Source: a virus. Taken from it: a DNA stretch of 30,503 bases. The stretch's first letter is position 1. Every line of letters starts with the position of its first letter. Of the stretch, positions 1 to 30,503 are shown piece after piece. The translations under genes and the position numbers were made by a program. The DNA lies in the IMG/VR virus record IMGVR_UViG_3300042558_000225, positions 1 to 30,503 of that record. The stretch is one strand, 5' to 3'. A model generated the notes under the pieces. That model did not search any database and was not told where the DNA came from. It saw only the letters and a list, made by a program, of their open reading frames with translations.

Positions 1-138
1 CTGTTTAAGCAGATGCCCGTATCGGTTGCCTTGGGTGCGATGGTTTTTTTTTATCGTTTAGGGAACGTATTAGCGCAACATACACTAAACTCTTTGGCGA
101 AGGAAGCGAAGACATCTACACAAGAGAAGCACAGTTTG
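1..138. repeat. Terminal direct repeat, left copy (circular join)
   Basis: These 138 bases recur at 30366-30503. The only difference is base 12 (G here, A at 30377), so bases 13-138 match exactly over 126 bp. Reading frames continue smoothly from the right end into base 139, which shows that the repeat is the overlap of a circularly closed or circularly permuted map. The mismatch turns a CAG into a CAA codon, both Gln. The non-redundant length is about 30,365 bp. Confidence 0.95.
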
Positions 139-237
139 GACAGCGATGGGGATGGTATTCCAGCATCTATGCTTTGGCTAACGGAGACGTCACAAAGTTT
201 GAAGCAGTCACTCGACTACCTATTCATCAATGCTTGA
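1..237 (+). CDS. Tail-assembly-chaperone-like protein, 0-frame C-terminal part
   Basis: This is the continuation of the gene that starts at 29937. It enters the window at the circular join (base 1 equals 30366) and stays in the same frame to a stop at 235-237, giving a product of about 221 residues. The last part after the T9 run reads as a low-complexity tail rich in Ser, Thr and Leu, including the stretch SDGDGIP. An alternative -1 extension (51-296) overlaps it. By analogy with lambda gpG and gpGT, this would be the abundant short form that binds tape measure or tail tube before assembly. That role is inferred from position, size and the two-frame architecture, not from a motif. The tail might also be just the unshifted read-through product. 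Confidence 0.75.
   Translation: MFKQMPVSVALGAMVFFYRLGNVLAQHTLNSLAKEAKTSTQEKHSLDSDGDGIPASMLWLTETSQSLKQSLDYLFINA
44..52 (+). promoter_or_regulatory. Predicted -1 ribosomal frameshift site (T9 run)
   Basis: Nine T residues follow ATG GG. The frame from 29937 reads GTT TTT TTT TAT here, so bases 45-51 form the slippery heptamer T-TTT-TTT. A slip of one base back continues as TTA TCG TTT at 51 and stays open to 296, where the stop overlaps the ATG of the next gene. The same run appears in the right copy at 30409-30417. Transcriptional slippage on the homopolymer would give the same product. Confidence 0.75.
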
Positions 238-296
238 CCTACCTAACCTTTGAGAAGGAGAAGAACGAAATCGAAATGCAAAAATTAAAGTTATGA
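51..296 (+). CDS. Tail-assembly-chaperone -1 frame extension
   Basis: This is an 81-codon open stretch in the -1 frame relative to the gene from 29937. It has no good start of its own and begins at the T9 slip site. A slip gives a fusion of about 241 residues. The translation looks like real protein: an aromatic patch around FGQRWGWYSSIYALANG, then TKFEAVTRLPIHQCLTYLTF and a charged helical end (EKEKNEIEMQKLK). It resembles domains I recall from Bacteroidota phage proteins at the same locus. The stop at 294-296 overlaps the ATG of the next gene as ATGA, the coupling used across this operon, while the 0-frame stop at 237 would leave a 55-bp gap. Together these favour a gpG/gpGT-like pair. The role is inferred. 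Confidence 0.72.
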   Translation, partial: LSFRERISATYTKLFGEGSEDIYTREAQFGQRWGWYSSIYALANGDVTKFEAVTRLPIHQCLTYLTFEKEKNEIEMQKLKL

Positions 297-760
297 GAAG
301 TTTCTACCAAGCCACCGAGAAAATAAACGACTACCTGACCAGTCACCCGCTGGTAAAGGTGGTTACGTTTGGCGATATATTCGACGTTGACCTAAACAAG
401 CAGACCATCTTTCCGCTGGCACATATTATGGTGAACCAAGCCACGTTCTCCGACCACGTAATTCGTTTTAATGTATCGGTTCTTGCTATGGACATCGTGG
501 ACGAAACGAAGCAAGATTTGAGAAACCAAAACGAGCCATTCTTCGGGGTAGATAACCAGCAGGATATTTTGAACACGACCCTTGCAATCTTGAACGGACT
601 TCAGTCGCAGTTACGCAGGGGCACGCTGTACACGGACAAATACGAAATCGAAGGAGACGTAAGTTGCGAGCCATTCACGGAAAGGTTTGAGAACTTGCTA
701 ACGGGTTGGAACCTGACCTTCGACTTGATTGTACCAAACACCGAAATTAGTATTTGCTAA
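293..760 (+). CDS. Putative tail terminator / tail completion protein
   Basis: A 155-residue protein. Its ATG overlaps the -1 frame stop upstream (ATGA), and its stop overlaps the next ATG (TAATG). The N-terminal half contains TFGDIFDVDLNKQTIFPLAHI followed by an alternating beta pattern (IRFNVSVLAMDIVD) and a DNQQDILNTTLAILNGL helix. I recall this pattern from small structural proteins of Bacteroidota siphophages next to neck genes. The size and its place before a gp10-like connector fit a protein that caps the tail tube. No catalytic motif is visible. The specific role is inferred from context and could instead be another neck component. Confidence 0.6.
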   Translation: MRSFYQATEKINDYLTSHPLVKVVTFGDIFDVDLNKQTIFPLAHIMVNQATFSDHVIRFNVSVLAMDIVDETKQDLRNQNEPFFGVDNQQDILNTTLAILNGLQSQLRRGTLYTDKYEIEGDVSCEPFTERFENLLTGWNLTFDLIVPNTEISIC

Positions 761-1266
761 TGGCAAGGCAGGAGTTGGTCGAGGCGGTTCTTAATAAATT
801 CGCAAAGCGTGTAATTCAACAGGCGAGGCAAAATCTTACCAAGAAGAAAAAGAACGCATCCAAGGAACTTTACAACTCGTTGGACTACGACCTATCCGTA
901 GGCCCTAATTCGTTCTCCCTGACCTTTGAAATGGAGGACTACGGGGAGTTTCAAGACAAGGGCGTAAGCGGTGTCAAGCGTAAGTACAACACGCCGTACA
1001 AATACACCAACAAGATGCCACCACCCAAGGCATTCGCTCAATGGGTAGTCCGAAAGGGGCTTCAAGGCATCCGAGACAAGCAGGGGCGTTTTATCCCACG
1101 GAAGTCGCTGCAATACTTGATAGCAAGAAGCGTGTACAACAACGGTATAAAGCCGAGTTACTTTTTTAGCAACCCCTTCAAGGTGAACTTTAATAAACTA
1201 CCAAAGGAATTAATCGAAGCGTTTGGCCTTGGCCCAGACGACTTCCAAGCATTTACACGTAAATAA
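760..1266 (+). CDS. Virion connector / HK97 gp10-like structural protein
   Basis: A 168-residue protein started at the ATG at 760, which overlaps the preceding TAA. A TTG two codons upstream is possible but less likely. It begins with a basic helix (KRVIQQARQNLTKKKKNAS) and has a central beta segment ending YGEFQDKGVSG. The Y-x-x-x-x-x-x-G pattern inside an amphipathic sheet is typical of gp10-like head-tail joining and minor tail proteins. The C-terminal half holds a basic patch around KGLQGIRDKQGRFIPRKS. It sits between the tail-terminator candidate and the large tail proteins, so a neck or tail-completion role is likely. It is coupled to the next gene by TAATG at 1264-1268. Confidence 0.6.
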   Translation: MARQELVEAVLNKFAKRVIQQARQNLTKKKKNASKELYNSLDYDLSVGPNSFSLTFEMEDYGEFQDKGVSGVKRKYNTPYKYTNKMPPPKAFAQWVVRKGLQGIRDKQGRFIPRKSLQYLIARSVYNNGIKPSYFFSNPFKVNFNKLPKELIEAFGLGPDDFQAFTRK

Positions 1267-4552: not shown

Positions 4553-4704
4553 AGGATAGCTATTTAGGTTACTTGGTAGAGGTGCTTAACAACGAACCAC
4601 TACTGGGCGTATCGCACGAAGTGGAAATTGCAAAAGGCACTTACAAGCTCACGGAAGACAAAATAGAGGAAAAACTGAAGATATGGCGGTTGTCGAAACT
4701 GTAA
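4549..4704 (+). CDS. Small conserved-looking protein before tape measure
   Basis: A 51-residue gene in a third frame. Its ATG overlaps the upstream stop (ATGA) and its last 22 bases overlap the tape measure start at 4683. Without it the operon would show a 130-bp gap, which is out of character here. The product starts MKDSYLGYLVEVLNNEPLLG, so it may be a single small beta domain, and ends in a charged helix (EDKIEEKLKIWRL). There is no membrane segment and no known motif. A tail assembly accessory role is suggested only by position. Confidence 0.6.
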   Translation: MKDSYLGYLVEVLNNEPLLGVSHEVEIAKGTYKLTEDKIEEKLKIWRLSKL

Positions 4705-6251
4705 AGATTGAGGGCGATGGTTCTGGCTTGGAGGATAGCATTAAAGGGCTAAACAAAGAGGCAGGCAAACTCCGTGACACCATCGAGGAGGTAGGCAAGA
4801 CCACCAAAACCGCCTTTGACAAAGCCGAGAAGTCCGTTGAGGGTGTTCAAAGGGAAGTTGAGAAGACCAACAGCTCTTTCAAGGAATTAGCCAATAGCGC
4901 AAAGAGTATCGCCCTTGTTTCGGTTGCCCTTGATACGGCCACGGAGGCGTTTGCCGCCAACCAAGCCGTAGTCGATATTTTCAACACTGCCCTCGGAGCG
5001 GTTCAATTAACCGTCTCCAGAATCATTGATAGTTTCACCAAAGGTACGGCCTTAAACTTGGGTACGGTTATTTCGGACGCTTCCGAGGTTGTGCAACTTG
5101 AAAAAGAAGCAGCAAGAGCAGCGGCCCAACGAACAGCGGTACAATTAGAATACCAGTTGTTGGCCGAGCAGGCAAGGCAGGTTCGTGACGACGAGCAAAA
5201 GAGCATTGAGGATAGAATAGAGGCCAATTCACTAGTTAGCGACATCCTAACCGAACAACTTGCAAAAGAGAAGGAATTGGTACAGGCATCTGTTGCTGCG
5301 GCAGAAGCACAATTTTCCAAGTTGCCAAGCATTGAGAACGAGGTTGCCTTGATTCAGGCACGAACCGAATTAGTGGACATCGAGGAACGAGTTGCAGGGC
5401 AGCGGTCGGAGTTCCTTATGAATCAAATGTCGTTAAACAGAGAGCAGCAGACGTACAACGAATTGCTTTTGAAGAATGGCGAAATAATCGAAGGTGAGCA
5501 ATCTGTAATTATTCAATTTAGCGAGAATCGCAGAACGGCACTCGAAGACGAGTATAACGCCCAAACAAAAATCCTCGATATTGAAATAGCAATAGCAAAG
5601 GCACGTCTTGATGCAGCAGCAGAGGGAACCGTTGCCCAGCAAGAGGCGTACGACGCATATTTACAGCTAACAACAGACAAGGGGGTATTAGACGCAGAGT
5701 ACGCAAGGAATAGCAAGGAACTCGACAAGGAGGTTGCTTCCGCTCGCTTTCAAATGGCAAAGGATGGTTTGTCGGCCATTAGTCAACTATCTGCGGCATT
5801 TGCTGGTGAGGACGAGGCATCTAAAAAGAAGCAGTTTGAGTTCCAAAAAAAGCTATCCCTTGCTTCTGCGGTCGTTAGTGGTATTGAAGCCGTACAGAAC
5901 GCATACAAGACCGCCCAAGCGTCTCCGTACACTATTGCCTTTCCTGCGTACCCATTTGTACAAGCAGGCCTTGCGGCAGCATTTAGCGGAGCGCAAATCG
6001 CAGCAATCGCACGAAGCCAATTTGAATCGCCAGAAACAGGCAGTACCGACTACGGAGGTGGCTCGTCTGCTGCCCCTTCAGCACCAAGCGCACCGCAGTT
6101 TAACGTCGTTGGCCGTAGCGGTATAAACCAGTTAGCAGAATCGGTTAACGCAGTAAACAATCGCCCCGTCCGTGCCTACGTGGTAGCGGGTGAGGTTACT
6201 TCACAACAGAACTTAAATAGACGCAGAGCAAGAACCGCAACATTCGGATAA
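4683..6251 (+). CDS. Tail tape measure protein
   Basis: A 522-residue, mostly helical protein with long coiled-coil stretches. An N-terminal segment (GDGSGLEDSIKGLNKEAGKL) leads into a heptad-rich region, then a small hydrophobic patch near residues 75-110, a Gln/Glu/Ala-rich rod (about 140-390), and a C-terminal part with KKKQFEFQKKLSLASAVVSG and alanine-rich helices near residues 385-440. The end (RPVRAYVVAGEVTSQQNLNR) matches a closing motif I recall from Bacteroidota phage tape measures. By the usual rule of about 1.5 Angstrom per residue, the tail would be short to medium, near 75-80 nm. It lacks a visible lytic domain. It lies next to tail proteins and just before the capsid block. Confidence 0.8.
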   Translation: MAVVETVKIEGDGSGLEDSIKGLNKEAGKLRDTIEEVGKTTKTAFDKAEKSVEGVQREVEKTNSSFKELANSAKSIALVSVALDTATEAFAANQAVVDIFNTALGAVQLTVSRIIDSFTKGTALNLGTVISDASEVVQLEKEAARAAAQRTAVQLEYQLLAEQARQVRDDEQKSIEDRIEANSLVSDILTEQLAKEKELVQASVAAAEAQFSKLPSIENEVALIQARTELVDIEERVAGQRSEFLMNQMSLNREQQTYNELLLKNGEIIEGEQSVIIQFSENRRTALEDEYNAQTKILDIEIAIAKARLDAAAEGTVAQQEAYDAYLQLTTDKGVLDAEYARNSKELDKEVASARFQMAKDGLSAISQLSAAFAGEDEASKKKQFEFQKKLSLASAVVSGIEAVQNAYKTAQASPYTIAFPAYPFVQAGLAAAFSGAQIAAIARSQFESPETGSTDYGGGSSAAPSAPSAPQFNVVGRSGINQLAESVNAVNNRPVRAYVVAGEVTSQQNLNRRRARTATFG

Positions 6252-6252
6252 A

Positions 6253-7185
6253 ATGAAAGTAATTGAACTGGTATTGGAAGATACCGAAGGGCTAAACGGA
6301 ATCAATGCCATAAGCATCGTTGAGCATCCCGCTATTGAGGAAAACTTTATTACGTTGTCGAAAGAACACGAAGTACAGTTCGCCAAGCAGGACGAGGAGA
6401 AGCGAATCCTTATGGGCGCAGCTTTGATTCCTAACAAGACCATTTACCGCAACCAAGGCGGAGAGGAATTTTACGTTTACTTCTCAAAAGAGACGGTACG
6501 CAAGGCATCCGAACTATTCCTTATGCGTGGCTACCAAGGTAACACTACCCTCGAACACGCAGCGGAGCTTAATGGCTTGTCGGTTGTTGAATCTTGGATT
6601 ATTGAAGACCCCAAAAAGGACAAGACGGCCATTTACGGAATGGAGTTGCCCGAAGGAACTTGGATGGTCTCAATGAAGGTAAATAACGAGGACGTTTGGG
6701 AGAACTACGTTAAGACTGGCCGTGTAAAGGGCTTCTCAATAGAGGGCTACTTTGTTGACAAGTTGCAAATGGAATCCCACTTGGAACGCATCGAGGAAGA
6801 AGAAGCCGAGTTCCTGCTTTCTAATATTATTGCCAAAATCAAAAAGGACGGCCGCCTAAAAAGCAAGAAGCGAATCGAAATGGAATCGTACAGCGACTAC
6901 CCAGAGGCAGTTCGCAATAACGCAAAGCGTGGTATCGAGCTAAACGAGAAAGGCGGTAACAAATGCGCTACGCAAGTCGGCAAGATACGAGCGCAGCAAC
7001 TCGCAGACGGAAAGCCAATAAGCGTAGAAACAATTAGCCGTATGTACTCGTACCTATCAAGAGCCGAAACATACTATGACGAAGGAGATACCGAAGCGTG
7101 CGGTACTATTAGCTACTTGCTATGGGGCGGGCTTGCCGCAAAGCGTTGGTCTGAATCTAAATTAAAAGAACTCGGTAAATTATGA
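6253..7185 (+). CDS. XkdF-like phage protease (prohead protease) with C-terminal domain
   Basis: A 310-residue protein. Residues 1-170 match the XkdF-type putative serine protease family (Peptidase_S78_2): MKVIELVLEDTEGLNGINAI with SIVEHPAIEENF, then YRNQGGEEFYVYFSKETV, the TTLEHAAELNGL segment and the family signature VKGFSIEGYF at 158-167. His and Ser in these segments are candidate catalytic residues. From residue 213 a separate domain starts with YSDYPEAVRNNAKRG, includes KIRAQQLADGKPISVETISR and ends around a WGGLAAKRW motif. That second domain is known as a free or fused module in phage head proteins. It sits between the tape measure and the scaffold/capsid genes, which fits capsid maturation. 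Confidence 0.82.
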   Translation: MKVIELVLEDTEGLNGINAISIVEHPAIEENFITLSKEHEVQFAKQDEEKRILMGAALIPNKTIYRNQGGEEFYVYFSKETVRKASELFLMRGYQGNTTLEHAAELNGLSVVESWIIEDPKKDKTAIYGMELPEGTWMVSMKVNNEDVWENYVKTGRVKGFSIEGYFVDKLQMESHLERIEEEEAEFLLSNIIAKIKKDGRLKSKKRIEMESYSDYPEAVRNNAKRGIELNEKGGNKCATQVGKIRAQQLADGKPISVETISRMYSYLSRAETYYDEGDTEACGTISYLLWGGLAAKRWSESKLKELGKL

Positions 7186-7355: not shown

Positions 7356-7901
7356 ATGAAGGCAAGTGAAATTTTCACCAAGTTCTTTGCGGAGCTATCC
7401 GCAGTAGAAGAAGAAGTTAAGTTGGCGCAAGCCAAACTTGACAACGGCACTGTCCTTGAAGCCGAAGCATTTGAAGCAGGCCAACCCATCTTTATCGTTA
7501 GCGAAGAAGACCGCATCGCCGTTCCAGTAGGTGAATACCTGATGGAAGACGGACGTGTTTTGGTCGTTACCGAAGAAGGCGTTGTTGGCGAAATCAAAGA
7601 AGCAGCAGCCGAAGAGGAAACACCAGAGGTAGAAGTAGAGGTAGAAGCCGCTATGGAGCCGTCTGTTGAAGACAAAATCAAAGAGGTGGTTATGCCCCTC
7701 ATTGAGGAAATGAAGGCGGAGTTGTCCGCTATGCGTGAGGAAATGGGTTCTTACAAGAAGAAGCAAGAAATGTCTTCTGACGTACCAGCCGCTTCCCCTA
7801 TTAAACATAACCCCGAAGGAAAGACCAAGGAAGTTGTAAACCTGTCGCAGAACGCAACAGAGTCAGCCCTTGACCGTGTCCTTGCACGACTTAACAAATA
7901 A
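7356..7901 (+). CDS. Putative capsid scaffolding protein
   Basis: A 181-residue acidic, helical protein placed directly before the major capsid gene, the usual site of a scaffold. The N-terminus is a helix (KASEIFTKFFAELSAVEEEV). A compact beta section with repeated G-x-x-L/V pieces (EAFEAGQPIFIVSEEDRIAV) follows, then a long Glu-rich coiled coil (about residues 85-145) and a basic C-terminus (NATESALDRVLARLNK) suited to contacting capsid subunits. It has no membrane segment. The role is inferred from position and composition. It might also be a delta-domain-like partner of the protease. Confidence 0.68.
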   Translation: MKASEIFTKFFAELSAVEEEVKLAQAKLDNGTVLEAEAFEAGQPIFIVSEEDRIAVPVGEYLMEDGRVLVVTEEGVVGEIKEAAAEEETPEVEVEVEAAMEPSVEDKIKEVVMPLIEEMKAELSAMREEMGSYKKKQEMSSDVPAASPIKHNPEGKTKEVVNLSQNATESALDRVLARLNK

Positions 7902-8922: not shown

Positions 8923-9456
8923 ATGGCTTGTGCACTTTCCCTTGGCCGTATTGAACCCTGCAAGGACGTTGTAGGTGGTTTGAATGCGGTTTACTTTTTG
9001 AACTACGCAAACCTGACGGTAACATACGATGCTACCAACACGGATGCTATTGACGTTCTCGGAAGCGGATTGACCGCTTACAAATACGAATTGAAAGGAA
9101 CCTCGTCTTTCGAGCAGGCAATTACTTCTTCTCGTGACAACGGAACCACGTTCTTCGACCAGACCTTGAATTTGACCTTGCACAAGTTGAGCAAGCAGTC
9201 ACACAAGGAAATCAAGTTGATGGCCTATGGTCGTCCGATTGTAATCGTTGAAGACCGCAATGGTAACTTCTTCGTTGCTGGTTTGGAACACGGTTGCGAG
9301 GTTACTGGTGGTACTATCGTTACTGGTGCTGCTATGGGCGATATGAGTGGTTATACTTTGGTATTGAACGGACAAGAGCCAGTTCCTGCGAACTTCTTGG
9401 ACGGCACTTTGTCTGCTGCTGGTATTTCAACTATTGTAACTGGTTCTGACTTTTGA
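8923..9456 (+). CDS. Major tail tube protein
   Basis: A 177-residue beta-rich protein just after the capsid gene, the common place for a tail tube subunit. Recognisable stretches are FEQAITSSRDNGTTFFDQTL, then KEIKLMAYGRPIVIVEDRNG and FFVAGLEHGCEVTGGTIVTG, ending with GDMSGYTLVLNGQEPVPANF. The closing 'Y-T-L-x-L-x-x-Q-E-P-x-P-A-x-F-L' pattern is one I associate with Bacteroidota phage major tail proteins. Codon choice is biased as in the capsid gene, which supports high expression. With a tape measure in the genome this makes the phage a tailed, non-podoviral type. Confidence 0.8.
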   Translation: MACALSLGRIEPCKDVVGGLNAVYFLNYANLTVTYDATNTDAIDVLGSGLTAYKYELKGTSSFEQAITSSRDNGTTFFDQTLNLTLHKLSKQSHKEIKLMAYGRPIVIVEDRNGNFFVAGLEHGCEVTGGTIVTGAAMGDMSGYTLVLNGQEPVPANFLDGTLSAAGISTIVTGSDF

Positions 9457-13123: not shown

Positions 13124-14898
13124 TGAGTAGTTTTTATGACGATGCTTCGCTTGTTGTTATACCAAGCGGCTACAAGACAAGCAAGATTTACGCAGAGAAG
13201 CCGACCGATGGTTCGGGTGATTTGACTTTTACCCGTGCTTCGGGTGCTACCCGTGTGGCCAGTAATGGCCTTATTGAGAAGGTGCGGACTAATCTTGCTT
13301 TGTATAGCGAAGACCAAACCAACTGGACTGACCAAAACCAAACGAGCGTAACGGCTAACGCTGCTGCGAATCCCCTTAATGGTGCGGTAACCGCAGACAA
13401 AGTAATTCCTTCTACGGCTACGGATGACCACTATCGTGGTTTGTCAATGGGCAGTATTATTGGTGAATTTACTTCGTCTATTTATGTAAAGGCGGACGGG
13501 TATAGCATTATTGATTACGGAGTTTTTAATAGCACTGCCTCAAATTACCCAGTTCGTGCCGTTTTTGATTTGTCAACGCAAACCATCACGCAGATAAATG
13601 GTAGTATTTCGTCTATCACTTCGGTAGGTTCGGGATGGTACCGAATTAGTGTTACTGCTTCGGTTGCATCAACCAGCACAATGGGCATTTACCACCGAGT
13701 GCGTTCTACGGGAACTTCGGGTAATTATGCTGGCGATGGTACAAGCGGTATGCTTTTGTGGGGTTGCCAATTAGAATCGGGCGTGATAACTCCATATATC
13801 GGCCCCACCACCACCGCAGCCGTAAGCGTTGGGCCAGTGAGCAACATACCCCGTCTTGACTATTTAGGTAGCAGTTGTCCTCGCCTGTTGCTGGAACCGC
13901 AGCGGACGAACATAGTTAGACAGTCAGAAACATTTGATGGTGTGACCTGGACTAAATACAATGGTTCAACTGTTACCGCTAACACTGTAATAAGCCCCGA
14001 CGGCACACAAAATGCCGATACTTTAACTGTAAGCACAACAGTATATAGCGGTTTATATCAGCTAATAAGTGGAGCAGCCGGGAACTATGTAGTTTCTATT
14101 TTCGCAAAAAAGGGAACTAAAAACTGGTTATATATGTTTGACCACTCCGCCGCAGGCCAAGCGTGGTTTAATTTAGATACTGGTACAATTGGTTCGGTTA
14201 ATACTGGATATACGGCAACTATTACCCCATACGGCAATGGGTGGTTTCGGTGCACAATGTACCGAAATTCTGGTGGTACGCCCGGCTATTTTCAAATTGG
14301 TTTATCTGATGCCAACGAGGTTTCTACCCCTACGTCTACGGGCACGGCACACATTTGGGGCGCTCAATGCGAAGCAGGAAACTACGCAACTTCCTACGTA
14401 CCAACGACTTCCGCAAGTGTTACCCGTGTGGCCGATGCTGCCTCAAAGACGGGCATAAGCTCGCTTTTAAGCGCTTCGGAATACACGCTATTTTGGGAAG
14501 GTACGCACATCCCGACTGGGCAGTTCAATAGTTTTATGACTATTTACAACGCTGCGAACAATGCTTTCAGCGCTCGTTTCTATCGAAATAATACAAACAA
14601 CGAAGTAAGAGCTACTATGTTTAACCCTTCGACAAGCTTCTCTTTAGATATGGGGTCGGGAATAACTGCTTCATACATTAAATGCGCTTTACGTGTAAAG
14701 GCTGGAAATTACGCATTTTATGTGAATGGAAGCCTTGTCAATTCAAGCACAAACGCACTTGCGCCATCGAATATACTTGATTCTGTAAACTTACAATTCT
14801 ATGGGAGTTCGCAATCTTTTGACCAAAATACCGCCCAAGCTTTGTTCTTTAAAACTGGATTAACCAACGCCCAACTGGCAGAACTTACCACGCTATGA
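13123..14898 (+). CDS. Tail fibre / receptor-binding protein with duplicated module
   Basis: A 591-residue beta-rich, Ser/Thr/Gly-rich protein. The N-terminus (LTFTRASGATRVASNGLIE) is a cap motif common in Bacteroidota phage fibre or head-spike proteins. Two copies of a lectin-like module follow, about residues 56-240 and 262-440. Each starts R-T-N-x-x-x-x-S-E, carries W-T, a D-x-x-T-x-T-I strand and a G-x-G-W-x-R turn, and ends with W-G-x-Q-x-E-x-G-x-x-x-x-Y. A link with IPRLDYLG and CPRLLLEPQRTN joins them. The last 140 residues look like a concanavalin/LamG-type domain (TLFWEGTHIPTGQF, then NYAFYVNGSLV). It probably binds host surface glycans. No hydrolase motif seen. Confidence 0.75.
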   Translation: MSSFYDDASLVVIPSGYKTSKIYAEKPTDGSGDLTFTRASGATRVASNGLIEKVRTNLALYSEDQTNWTDQNQTSVTANAAANPLNGAVTADKVIPSTATDDHYRGLSMGSIIGEFTSSIYVKADGYSIIDYGVFNSTASNYPVRAVFDLSTQTITQINGSISSITSVGSGWYRISVTASVASTSTMGIYHRVRSTGTSGNYAGDGTSGMLLWGCQLESGVITPYIGPTTTAAVSVGPVSNIPRLDYLGSSCPRLLLEPQRTNIVRQSETFDGVTWTKYNGSTVTANTVISPDGTQNADTLTVSTTVYSGLYQLISGAAGNYVVSIFAKKGTKNWLYMFDHSAAGQAWFNLDTGTIGSVNTGYTATITPYGNGWFRCTMYRNSGGTPGYFQIGLSDANEVSTPTSTGTAHIWGAQCEAGNYATSYVPTTSASVTRVADAASKTGISSLLSASEYTLFWEGTHIPTGQFNSFMTIYNAANNAFSARFYRNNTNNEVRATMFNPSTSFSLDMGSGITASYIKCALRVKAGNYAFYVNGSLVNSSTNALAPSNILDSVNLQFYGSSQSFDQNTAQALFFKTGLTNAQLAELTTL

Positions 14899-14911
14899 TG
14901 ACTGCATCGAG

Positions 14912-14942
14912 TTTGTATAGTACGAACTCTTTTGTATATTTA
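14912..14942 (+). promoter_or_regulatory. Bacteroidota-type promoter for the homing endonuclease
   Basis: TTTG (14912-14915), 19 bases, then TATATTTA (14935-14942), one base off the TAnnTTTG consensus. The first in-frame ATG after it is 14958. The promoter overlaps possible upstream starts at 14895, which argues for the later start and for independent expression of this gene. Confidence 0.65.
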
Positions 14943-14957
14943 CAAAAAGAATCTGCT

Positions 14958-15473
14958 ATGGAAATTTGGAAAGACATCAAAGGGTACGAAGGATTGTATC
15001 AGGTTTCAAACGAAGGTCGTGTGAAAGCGTTGAGCCGAGTTGTCAAATCACGTTGGGGGACACCCAAGCTGTTGAAGGAAAAAGAGATTCGTGAGATAGT
15101 TGACTCGCTCGGCTACTCACGTTTGTCTTTGTCTAAAGATGGTATGGTTAAGGCACACAAGATTCACCGCTTGGTTGCTGAAGCGTTTTTGGTTGGAGAA
15201 GGTCACATCAATCATATTGACGGCAACAAGCAAAACAACCACGTTTCAAATCTTGAGTTCTGCACCCAGCGAGAAAACAACATTCACGCTCAAGAAACAG
15301 GACTGAAGCCAAGAAAATACTACATTCCGATTGTATGCAATGAAACTGGTGAGATGTTTGAGTCAAAGTCCGCCCTTGCTCGTTCGCTTGGAGTTTCGGC
15401 AGTTATGGTTTCCTCTTACATTCGTGGCAATATGAAACATATCAAAGGAAAAACTTACATACAATTACAATGA
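14958..15473 (+). CDS. HNH homing endonuclease with NUMOD4
   Basis: A 171-residue protein. I chose ATG 14958 because the NUMOD4 domain begins right there and a promoter lies just upstream; the frame is open from 14895. Residues 1-45 are NUMOD4 (EIWKDIKGYEGLYQVSNEGR). Residues 68-110 are an HNH motif with H70, H86 in GHINHIDGNKQNNH and the N-L-E-F-C-T segment. Residues 125-160 are a helix-turn-helix NUMOD1-like part (SKSALARSLGVSAVMVSSYI). This is the usual layout of free-standing phage homing endonucleases. It cuts DNA near its own insertion site and spreads by repair. It sits between the fibre gene and the pre-lysis genes, likely as a selfish insertion. Confidence 0.9.
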   Translation: MEIWKDIKGYEGLYQVSNEGRVKALSRVVKSRWGTPKLLKEKEIREIVDSLGYSRLSLSKDGMVKAHKIHRLVAEAFLVGEGHINHIDGNKQNNHVSNLEFCTQRENNIHAQETGLKPRKYYIPIVCNETGEMFESKSALARSLGVSAVMVSSYIRGNMKHIKGKTYIQLQ

Positions 15474-28451: not shown

Positions 28452-28790
28452 ACTGTACAGCATAAAAAGGCAATGCTCGATGCGTTGGAAAAATCGTTAG
28501 GGGTAGTTACCTCGGCTTGCAAGACGGTAGGCATTGGAAGAACTACGCACTACCTTTGGATGGATAGCGACCCAGAATATAAAGCAGCAGTCGATTCAAT
28601 CGCAGACGTGGCTATTGACTTTGCAGAAAGCCAGTTACATAAACAAATCAAAGAGGGTAACTCCACCGCAACCATTTTCTTTCTTAAAACCAAGGGGAAG
28701 AAGCGTGGCTACGTTGAGCGTCAAGAGATTGATGCCGTGGGCGGAAAGTTGTTCCAAATAGAGGTACTTGGAGAAGATACGAACGAATAA
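28443..28790 (+). CDS. Terminase small subunit
   Basis: A 115-residue protein. The N-terminal region has a helix-turn-helix (MLDALEKSLGVVTSACKTVG, then IGRTTHYLWMDSDPEYKAAV), the DNA-recognition part of small terminases. The rest (FAESQLHKQIKEGNSTATIF, FLKTKGKKRGYVER) resembles the oligomerisation core in phBC6A51-type small subunits. It recognises the packaging site and loads the large subunit. Length is normal. Its first bases are shared with the antisense tRNA promoter. Its end overlaps the large subunit's likely start. Confidence 0.85.
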   Translation: MDKTVQHKKAMLDALEKSLGVVTSACKTVGIGRTTHYLWMDSDPEYKAAVDSIADVAIDFAESQLHKQIKEGNSTATIFFLKTKGKKRGYVERQEIDAVGGKLFQIEVLGEDTNE

Positions 28791-29925
28791 GGTATTTAAC
28801 CACCTGCAACGTAGCAACAAGAAGATTGTTGTTGAGCAAGGCGGTACACGGAGTGGGAAAACTTACAATATCCTGCTATGGATTATCTTTGAATATACCT
28901 ACCGAAATACAGGCAAGACCATCACCATTTGCCGTAAGTCGTTTCCTTCGCTTCGGGCTTCGGTTATGCGTGACTTTCTCGACATCCTACGTGCCTACGA
29001 ATTGTACAACGAGGAATACCATAACAAGTCCAGCAACGAATACCACCTAAACGGAAACCTTGTTGAGTTTATTTCACTTGACCAGCCCCAGAAGATACGT
29101 GGCCGTAAACGGAACTTGCTTTACATAAACGAGGGTAACGAGTTGTTTTACGAGGACTGGCAGCAGTTGGTATTTCGTACCGATGGGCGTATCATTATTG
29201 ACTACAACCCCTCCGATTCGTTTCACTGGATTTACGACCGAGTTATACCCCGTGAGGACTGCGACTTTTACCAAACAACATACAGAGACAACCCGTTTCT
29301 CGACAAGTCGATTGTAAACGAAATAGAACGCCTACGAGACACAGACGAGGACTACTGGCGCATCTACGGCTTGGGTGAACGGGGAATGAGCCGTGCGACC
29401 ATCTTTCAATTTGGGCAAGCCGAAATACCAACAGATGCAAAACTTATATCGTATGGACTTGACTTCGGTTACACCAACGACCCAACCGCACTCGTGGCCG
29501 TTTACCAGTTGGAAAACAACTTATACCTTGACGAACTCATTTACCGAACTGGACTCACAAACCGAGACATTCACGCCCATTTTCAGTCATTCAGTTTAGA
29601 CCGAAGGGACGAGGTCTTTGCCGATAGCGCAGAGCCAAAGTCTATTGACGAGCTGCACCGCTTCGGGTGGAACGTAAAACCAACTGTAAAGGGAGCCGAC
29701 TCGGTAAACGCAGGAATTGATATTCTAAAACGGCATAAGCTATTCGTAACGCCACGGAGCAGCAACCTAATCAAAGAACTCCAGAATTACAAGTGGGTTG
29801 AAGACAAGAACGGAAACCTGCTTAATAAGCCGATAGACGCATTCAACCACGGAATCGACGCTGCACGTTATGCGGTAGCAAATAAGCTCTCTAAACCAAA
29901 CTACGGTCGCTATAACGTCCGTTGA
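28768..29925 (+). CDS. Terminase large subunit
   Basis: A 385-residue packaging motor and nuclease, PBSX/XtmB-like. Walker A is GGTRSGKT at 25-32, Walker B is LLYINE at 117-122 and the coupling motif is IIIDYNPSD at 142-150. The RNase H-like nuclease has D232 in GLDFGYTNDPTAL, D286 in FADSAEP and D364 in NHGIDAARYAV as metal ligands. The start is a TTG at 28768 overlapping the small subunit by 23 bases; no ATG exists before the Walker A motif. Complete at both ends. It cuts DNA and fills the head. The next gene starts 12 bases later. Confidence 0.93.
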   Translation: MEKIRTNKVFNHLQRSNKKIVVEQGGTRSGKTYNILLWIIFEYTYRNTGKTITICRKSFPSLRASVMRDFLDILRAYELYNEEYHNKSSNEYHLNGNLVEFISLDQPQKIRGRKRNLLYINEGNELFYEDWQQLVFRTDGRIIIDYNPSDSFHWIYDRVIPREDCDFYQTTYRDNPFLDKSIVNEIERLRDTDEDYWRIYGLGERGMSRATIFQFGQAEIPTDAKLISYGLDFGYTNDPTALVAVYQLENNLYLDELIYRTGLTNRDIHAHFQSFSLDRRDEVFADSAEPKSIDELHRFGWNVKPTVKGADSVNAGIDILKRHKLFVTPRSSNLIKELQNYKWVEDKNGNLLNKPIDAFNHGIDAARYAVANKLSKPNYGRYNVR

Positions 29926-29936
29926 GTTATTTACCT

Positions 29937-30503
29937 ATGGAACTGAAATTAGTAGTACCTACGTCACTTGACGAAATTACGTTGGAGCAATACCAACGCT
30001 TTGCCCGTATTGAAGGGGACGAAGAGTTCCGCCAAAAGAAGATGCTTGAAATCTTTTGCCAAGTTCCTTTTTCCGACTTGCCAAAGGTTCGCCTTGTGGA
30101 CGCTAACAACGTCCTAACCGTATTGAGCAAGACCCTAAACCAAAAGCCAGACCTTACCAAGTTCTTCGAGTTGAAAGGAACGAAGTACGGATTCATTCCT
30201 GCCCTTAACGATATTTCGCTTGGTGAGTTTGTTGACCTTGACAACTATATGAAGGACTGGGCTACGATGCACCGAGCTATGGCGGTATTGTACCGACCCG
30301 TCACCAAGGAGAAAGGCGAACGCTACGACATCGAGGACTACACCCCAGACGAAGGCAGGGAGGAGCTGTTTAAGCAAATGCCCGTATCGGTTGCCTTGGG
30401 TGCGATGGTTTTTTTTTATCGTTTAGGGAACGTATTAGCGCAACATACACTAAACTCTTTGGCGAAGGAAGCGAAGACATCTACACAAGAGAAGCACAGT
30501 TTG
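29937..30503 (+). CDS. Tail-assembly-chaperone-like protein, 5' part (runs through join)
   Basis: The ATG at 29937 follows the large terminase by 11 bases. The frame is open to the window end and continues at base 139. The protein starts MELKLVVPTSLDEITLEQYQ, with RFARIEGDEEFRQKKML, then FIPALNDISLGEFVDLDNYM and RPVTKEKGERYDIEDY. This is a pattern I recall from conserved Bacteroidota phage proteins located between terminase and tail genes. At 30409-30417 comes the T9 run where a -1 shift switches to the frame that ends at 296. Up to the slip there are 160 codons; the shifted product has about 241 residues and the unshifted one about 221. A gpG/gpGT-like role is inferred. Confidence 0.82.
   Translation, partial: MELKLVVPTSLDEITLEQYQRFARIEGDEEFRQKKMLEIFCQVPFSDLPKVRLVDANNVLTVLSKTLNQKPDLTKFFELKGTKYGFIPALNDISLGEFVDLDNYMKDWATMHRAMAVLYRPVTKEKGERYDIEDYTPDEGREELFKQMPVSVALGAMVFFYRLGNVLAQHTLNSLAKEAKTSTQEKHSL
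30366..30503. repeat. Terminal direct repeat, right copy
   Basis: Same 138 bases as 1-138, with A at 30377 instead of G at 12. The frame of the gene from 29937 runs through it. It marks the circular join and is not an independent element. Confidence 0.95.

Follow-up and report, generated by a model that had tools for sequence, protein, structure and literature searches.

The window analysed here, that is the whole stretch of 30,503 nucleotides, opens in the middle of a reading frame, and its first bases raise the question whether a single gene crosses the ends of the record and is translated into two proteins that share their N-terminal part. Bases 1-138 repeat bases 30366-30503 with one mismatch, which indicates that the record is circular. 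The mismatch, G at 12 versus A at 30377, is synonymous (CAG/CAA) and suggests that the assembled population contained more than one strain. The proposal of the first-pass annotation that the gene starting at 29937 continues past the join was borne out by this circularity and by relatives (e.g. L002) in which the join is crossed unbroken. Frame 0 is read from 29937 to 30365 and then from 1 to the stop codon at 235-237, giving a product of 221 amino acids (aa), of which the 160 residues between the ATG and the slip constitute the N-terminal domain. A -1 slip on T_TTT_TTT is predicted from the sequence to give a product of 241 aa. The T9 run that contains this heptamer is the longest homopolymer in the window, and is matched elsewhere only by its repeat copy at 30409-30417. 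The features of the gene are as follows.

1..138, no strand: repeat at the ends of the circular record, second copy at 30366-30503 with one mismatch
29937..30503, + strand: 5' part of the frame-0 gene, ATG at 29937 (PHROG 32199, E 1.2e-26; predicted fold)
1..237, + strand: 3' part of the frame-0 gene past the join, stop codon at 235-237, full product 221 aa
45..51, + strand: putative slippery heptamer T_TTT_TTT in frame-0 phase, within the run of nine Ts at 44-52; also at 30410-30416 in the end repeat
51..296, + strand: -1 frame extension, 81 codons, stop TGA 294-296; predicted short helix, then three-helix W/Y-rich domain
52..108, + strand: stretch of about 19 codons that appears to be under selection in both frames; in frame 0, the end of a long helix
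109..234, + strand: remaining frame-0 tail, open, without sign of frame-0 selection (substitutions, openness, predicted fold)

The positions given in the first-pass annotation for the shift (45-51) and the frame-0 stop at 237 were correct, as were the 81 open codons of the -1 frame and, by sequence, the sizes of the two products, 221 and 241 residues. The -1 frame does end in an ATGA shared with the start of the next gene (TGA at 294-296, ATG at 293). The W/Y-rich helical domain seen there was likewise recovered: according to the predicted fold and the alignment, the extension opens with a short helix, and its terminal part is a three-helix domain carrying invariant aromatic residues. A match of the -1 profile to Crov588 (E 9.6e-5, 28 residues, no stretch passing alone) was taken as chance.

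Several hundred relatives were gathered by scans of viral and genome contigs, and the loci were sorted with profiles for both halves of the gene. The second domain was in the -1 frame in all 386 related loci that have both domains, a redundant count, as some contigs were counted more than once, which corresponds to about 200 distinct sequences. The T run was T9 in 382 of these loci and T10 in the other four; the -1 arrangement was found in 305 of 305 loci of the first set (304 T9, one T10) and in 81 of 81 loci of a second, marine-derived set (78 T9, three T10). The slippery run, for which retention in relatives had been proposed as a check, is thus kept together with the -1 frame. Seven very distant loci, read by eye, had the same layout. 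One of the very distant relatives (L400) has exactly T7, i.e. just the phased heptamer, and in L167 (an isolate of Paenimyroides baculatum), L401 and L403 the T9 run lies in a different register with T_TTT_TTT still in phase. These observations show that the fixed item is the in-phase heptamer.

The heptamer was free of change at all seven positions in a tree of 168 distinct sequences, whereas comparable sites had 13-35 changes each, and the 154 other well-aligned third positions of the first domain had a median of 29 changes, none of them being invariant. The two phenylalanine codons of the slip site were TTT in 100% of the 168 distinct sequences with zero changes, in contrast to five conserved phenylalanine codons elsewhere in the first domain, which were TTT in 48-70% and had undergone 13-29 third-position changes. 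Thus a conserved in-phase X_XXY_YYZ heptamer stands at the frame change, as is characteristic of -1 frameshift genes. From the comparative sequence evidence, the gene is almost certainly expressed with a -1 frameshift, and the slip is very probably ribosomal in nature.

X_XXY_YYZ is the established model for tandem tRNA slippage, and by analogy with it we infer that the simplest mechanism would be tandem slippage of two phenylalanine tRNAs. Most ribosomes would read frame 0 and make the 221-aa protein, in which a long helix closes the folded N-terminal domain; some, with their tRNAs on TTT TTT, would slip back by one base, both phenylalanine anticodons re-pairing fully. The slipped ribosomes would make the 241-aa protein, in which the helix end is replaced by the second helical, W/Y-rich domain. 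It is quite probable that in this way one gene yields two proteins by programmed -1 ribosomal frameshifting of the gpG/gpGT kind. A stimulatory element is common in -1 frameshift genes and is not required. No conserved downstream RNA structure that could act as a stimulator was found around the slip site in the alignment, nor were there conserved upstream (Shine-Dalgarno-like) bases near the slip beyond codon constraint.

The frame could also be changed during transcription, if the polymerase added one U or dropped two on the T9 run, each mRNA then having one frame only. The run, T9 in 382 of the 386 loci, is long enough for this, Tn with n > 8 having been cited as prone to polymerase slippage (PMC3711429). 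The relative that has T7, precisely the phased heptamer, argues against such a process, as does the finding that T_TTT_TTT in frame-0 phase is what all members have in common, the flanking hydrophobic and aromatic codons accounting for the two extra Ts. We therefore regard transcriptional slippage as quite unlikely.

Selection on frame 0 seems to extend past the slip. The wobble base of the -1 frame, which is the second base in frame 0, had a mean of 10.5 changes per site in -1 codons 0-18, and 17.9 and 20.5 changes per site further on. The deficit in codons 0-18 gave Mann-Whitney p values of 0.005 against codons 27-59 and of 0.0002 against codons 27-88, which are to be taken as indicative because all sites share one tree. 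As judged from these substitutions, selection on frame 0 appears to reach about 19 codons past the slip. AlphaFold2, with which the two halves were folded separately rather than as the fused 241-aa form, predicted for the frame-0 protein one helix of residues 150-185 running through the slip site, with confidence dropping after residue 182, in agreement with a selected stretch of about 19 codons. By the same kind of sequence evidence the last approximately 40 frame-0 codons look unselected. Among relatives the length of the frame-0 tail varies from about 15 to 88 codons. A long functional frame-0 tail was rejected, since constraint was seen in the approximately 19 codons only and the openness of frame 0 over approximately 62 codons past the slip was weakly above expectation (p about 0.05-0.2 in most sequences). 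A recurring DGDGI..S motif in this tail was also discarded: it overlaps the conserved -1 codons for WGWY and looks like their shadow.

If the T run were a homopolymer error of sequencing or assembly, the true gene would be one continuous frame. When IMG/VR was scanned for exact matches to the one-T-longer, continuous form in its commonest version, four contigs were returned, two of which were still -1. L411 was truly continuous, T10 in place of T9 near 958-983 joining both domains in one frame, and L412 was error-ridden, with one extra T plus further frame breaks. Such errors do occur in the data, as the additional T of these two contigs indicates, but the same T run recurs across hundreds of assemblies that are independent of one another and also in genomes of isolates, and frame 0 is constrained past the slip as well. 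With the T run and the -1 frame kept in 386 of 386 loci, sequencing error was rejected as extremely improbable. The first-pass annotation had named continuous-frame relatives, or loss of the T run or of the -1 frame, as observations that would speak against it; the run and the frame were retained, and the continuous form was nearly absent from IMG/VR. The continuous frame of L411 may exist in nature or stem from a fault of assembly. Both halves of the gene are matched by a few BFVD entries; they may derive from continuous-frame relatives or from T10 contigs like L411, and some relatives may accordingly be annotated or encoded as a single frame.

In the 168-sequence tree, the pattern of change in the -1 domain is that of coding sequence all the way to the end. 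Residues F3, R4 and R6, directly after the slip in the -1 frame, are invariant, and most of the about 200 distinct sequences lack a -1 start codon ahead of the conserved core, which excludes independent initiation for those. Coding selection in the -1 frame thus sets in straight from the slip without a start of its own, as expected of a frameshift gene. A separate, independently initiated gene in the -1 frame, as the short separate ORF called in GenBank for phages P12024L and P12024S would have it, has a negligible probability in view of these invariant residues immediately past the slip, the lack of a start codon before the core in most sequences and the invariant in-phase heptamer, for which a separate gene would have no need.

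The gene is present in isolates, namely in P. baculatum and in the Nonlabens (Persicivirga) phages P12024L and P12024S. In the two phages the homologous genes (P12024L_40/_41 and P12024S_38/_39, PHROG 32199) have T9 and are annotated without a frameshift, as two hypothetical proteins. They agree with the window gene in T9, -1 domain and gene order, and differ from it in sequence (about 30% identity) and in the frame-0 tail, which ends 25-28 codons past the slip. The GenBank genes P12024L_41 (L158, 12528-12695) and P12024S_39 (L159, 3528-3695) were called from an internal ATG, and probably cover no more than the 3' part of the -1 extension.

What the two proteins do was approached through the gene neighbourhood, of which the relevant members are given below.

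28768..29925, + strand: terminase large subunit (terL), upstream neighbour (PHROG/Pfam match, conserved order)
293..760, + strand: next gene, 155 aa, start overlapping the -1 stop (PHROG 30964; conserved neighbour)
760..1266, + strand: conserved neighbour, 168 aa (PHROG 29822)
4683..6251, + strand: tape-measure-like gene, 522 aa (PHROG 1506, E 1.9e-6), the presumed client if the frameshift gene encodes a chaperone

The conserved order is terL - frameshift gene - 293 - 760 - 1266 - 2513, and in all loci that reach that far the frameshift gene lies between terL and the 293 and 760 genes. The first-pass annotation cited such slippage between the tail tube and tape measure genes of lambda and many siphophages. 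The gene of the window does not have that position: it is directly 3' of terL, and four genes separate it from the tape-measure-like gene. A candidate tail tube protein is encoded at 8923-9456. The phage is small (about 30.4 kb) and tailed, with Bacteroidota as probable hosts.

Frameshifts of this type have been linked to tail chaperones, with lambda gpG/gpGT as the example (PMC5009743). By -1 frameshifting, one gene would here too give a short and a long form, and this likeness lies in the sequence only. In a tail chaperone of this kind the shared N-terminal part would serve to bind the tape measure protein, and the long form, made in smaller amounts, to recruit tail tube subunits, as in gpG/gpGT. 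A weak fold match (E 0.039, probability 0.94) was obtained to a phage protein, from ctCpR1, that carries the name tail assembly chaperone. PHROG 32199, to which the first domain belongs, is listed as of unknown function. The frameshift gene product had no match in Pfam, neither half had a usable sequence or fold match in the PDB, and neither lambda gpG nor gpT was matched in single-sequence comparison, which has little power. Nine members gave a weak hit to PHROG 166 ('tail protein'; best E 0.0064), possibly by chance. Taken together, the tape-measure-like gene, the conserved structural neighbourhood, the weak fold match and the link between frameshifts and chaperones make a tail role likely, and we consider the more specific role of tail assembly chaperone reasonably likely. 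Of the frameshifted tail chaperone proposed by the first-pass annotation, the frameshift is thus strongly supported by comparative evidence, and the chaperone label is inferred, no sequence homology to known chaperones having been detected. BFVD also gave a fold match of the N-terminal domain to gp10 of Flavobacterium phage 6H (L316, 10040-10927, minus strand), whose frame 0 ends just past a T6 run and is followed by a longer open frame. No clear -1 continuation from the T6 site was found in its 3' region; gp10 is possibly another frameshifted or error-bearing gene of the same kind.

The same frameshift might serve a different function, its products acting in head-neck or packaging assembly and not on the tape measure protein. 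The constant position between terL and the small genes 293 and 760 and the failure to detect homology to known tail chaperones would fit such a role. On the other hand, it is from tail chaperones that frameshifted short/long pairs of tailed phages are best known (PMC5009743), the genome showed no further chaperone candidate, and the weak fold match is to a protein named as one. A head-neck or packaging role is therefore unlikely.

As in lambda gpG/gpGT, a heptamer late in a morphogenesis gene of a tailed phage is the site of a -1 slip and the two forms share their N-terminal domain, and the listing of lambda G and T as separate GenBank genes resembles the split annotation of the P12024 homologues. 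In contrast, no sequence similarity was detected between lambda gpG or gpT and the frameshift gene products, the lambda slip occurs on GGGAAAG instead of T_TTT_TTT, and lambda G/T is flanked by V (major tail protein) and H (tape measure), whereas the present gene follows terL. Frame 0 ends a few codons past the slip in lambda and 15-88 codons past it here, about 19 of them selected; the lambda pair consists of a short and an extended form, and the present one of proteins with different C-termini of similar length. Xu, Hendrix and Duda are said to have surveyed -1 frameshift tail chaperone genes in 2004. The tail chaperones of T4-like phages are comparable as tail chaperones of another tailed phage group, and differ in that a mechanism other than frameshifting is reportedly proposed for them, according to the title of a 2022 study by Vladimirov, Gautam and Davidson.

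A tentative and rather unlikely possibility is that the family, which is large, widely distributed and found mainly in Bacteroidota phages, fixed T_TTT_TTT to switch between two selected C-terminal ends and not for an optional extension of the lambda type. The ends would be the frame-0 helix end, within the dual-coding stretch of approximately 19 codons, and the -1 helical domain, possibly in a chaperone connected with neck and packaging genes.

In open-licence full texts no literature on the PHROG 32199 gene family and no description of frameshifting in tail genes of Bacteroidota phages was found. The mechanism as such is known; none of these texts was found to describe the family, its dual-coding end, the -1 partner domain or the uniform heptamer. 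Automated gene calling splits such genes, and the -1 partner domain of PHROG 32199 goes unrecognised. The frameshift reading provides a lead to the function of PHROG 32199 and its -1 partner domain, which are filed as unknown in hundreds of aquatic phage contigs. The plain T heptamer, strictly conserved without a visible stimulatory structure and also present in two isolated phages (P12024L/S), makes a simple test system for ribosomal slippage in Bacteroidota.

Two other observations were made in the window. PHROG 24921 (349 positions) matches with its first part the protease-like gene at 6253-7185 and with its second part the 181-aa protein at 7356-7901, the pattern that would result if two genes here corresponded to one protease-scaffold fusion in other phages. 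The 192-aa protein encoded at 14895-15473, directly past a tail-fibre-like gene, resembles by eye an HNH homing endonuclease with a NUMOD4-like start.
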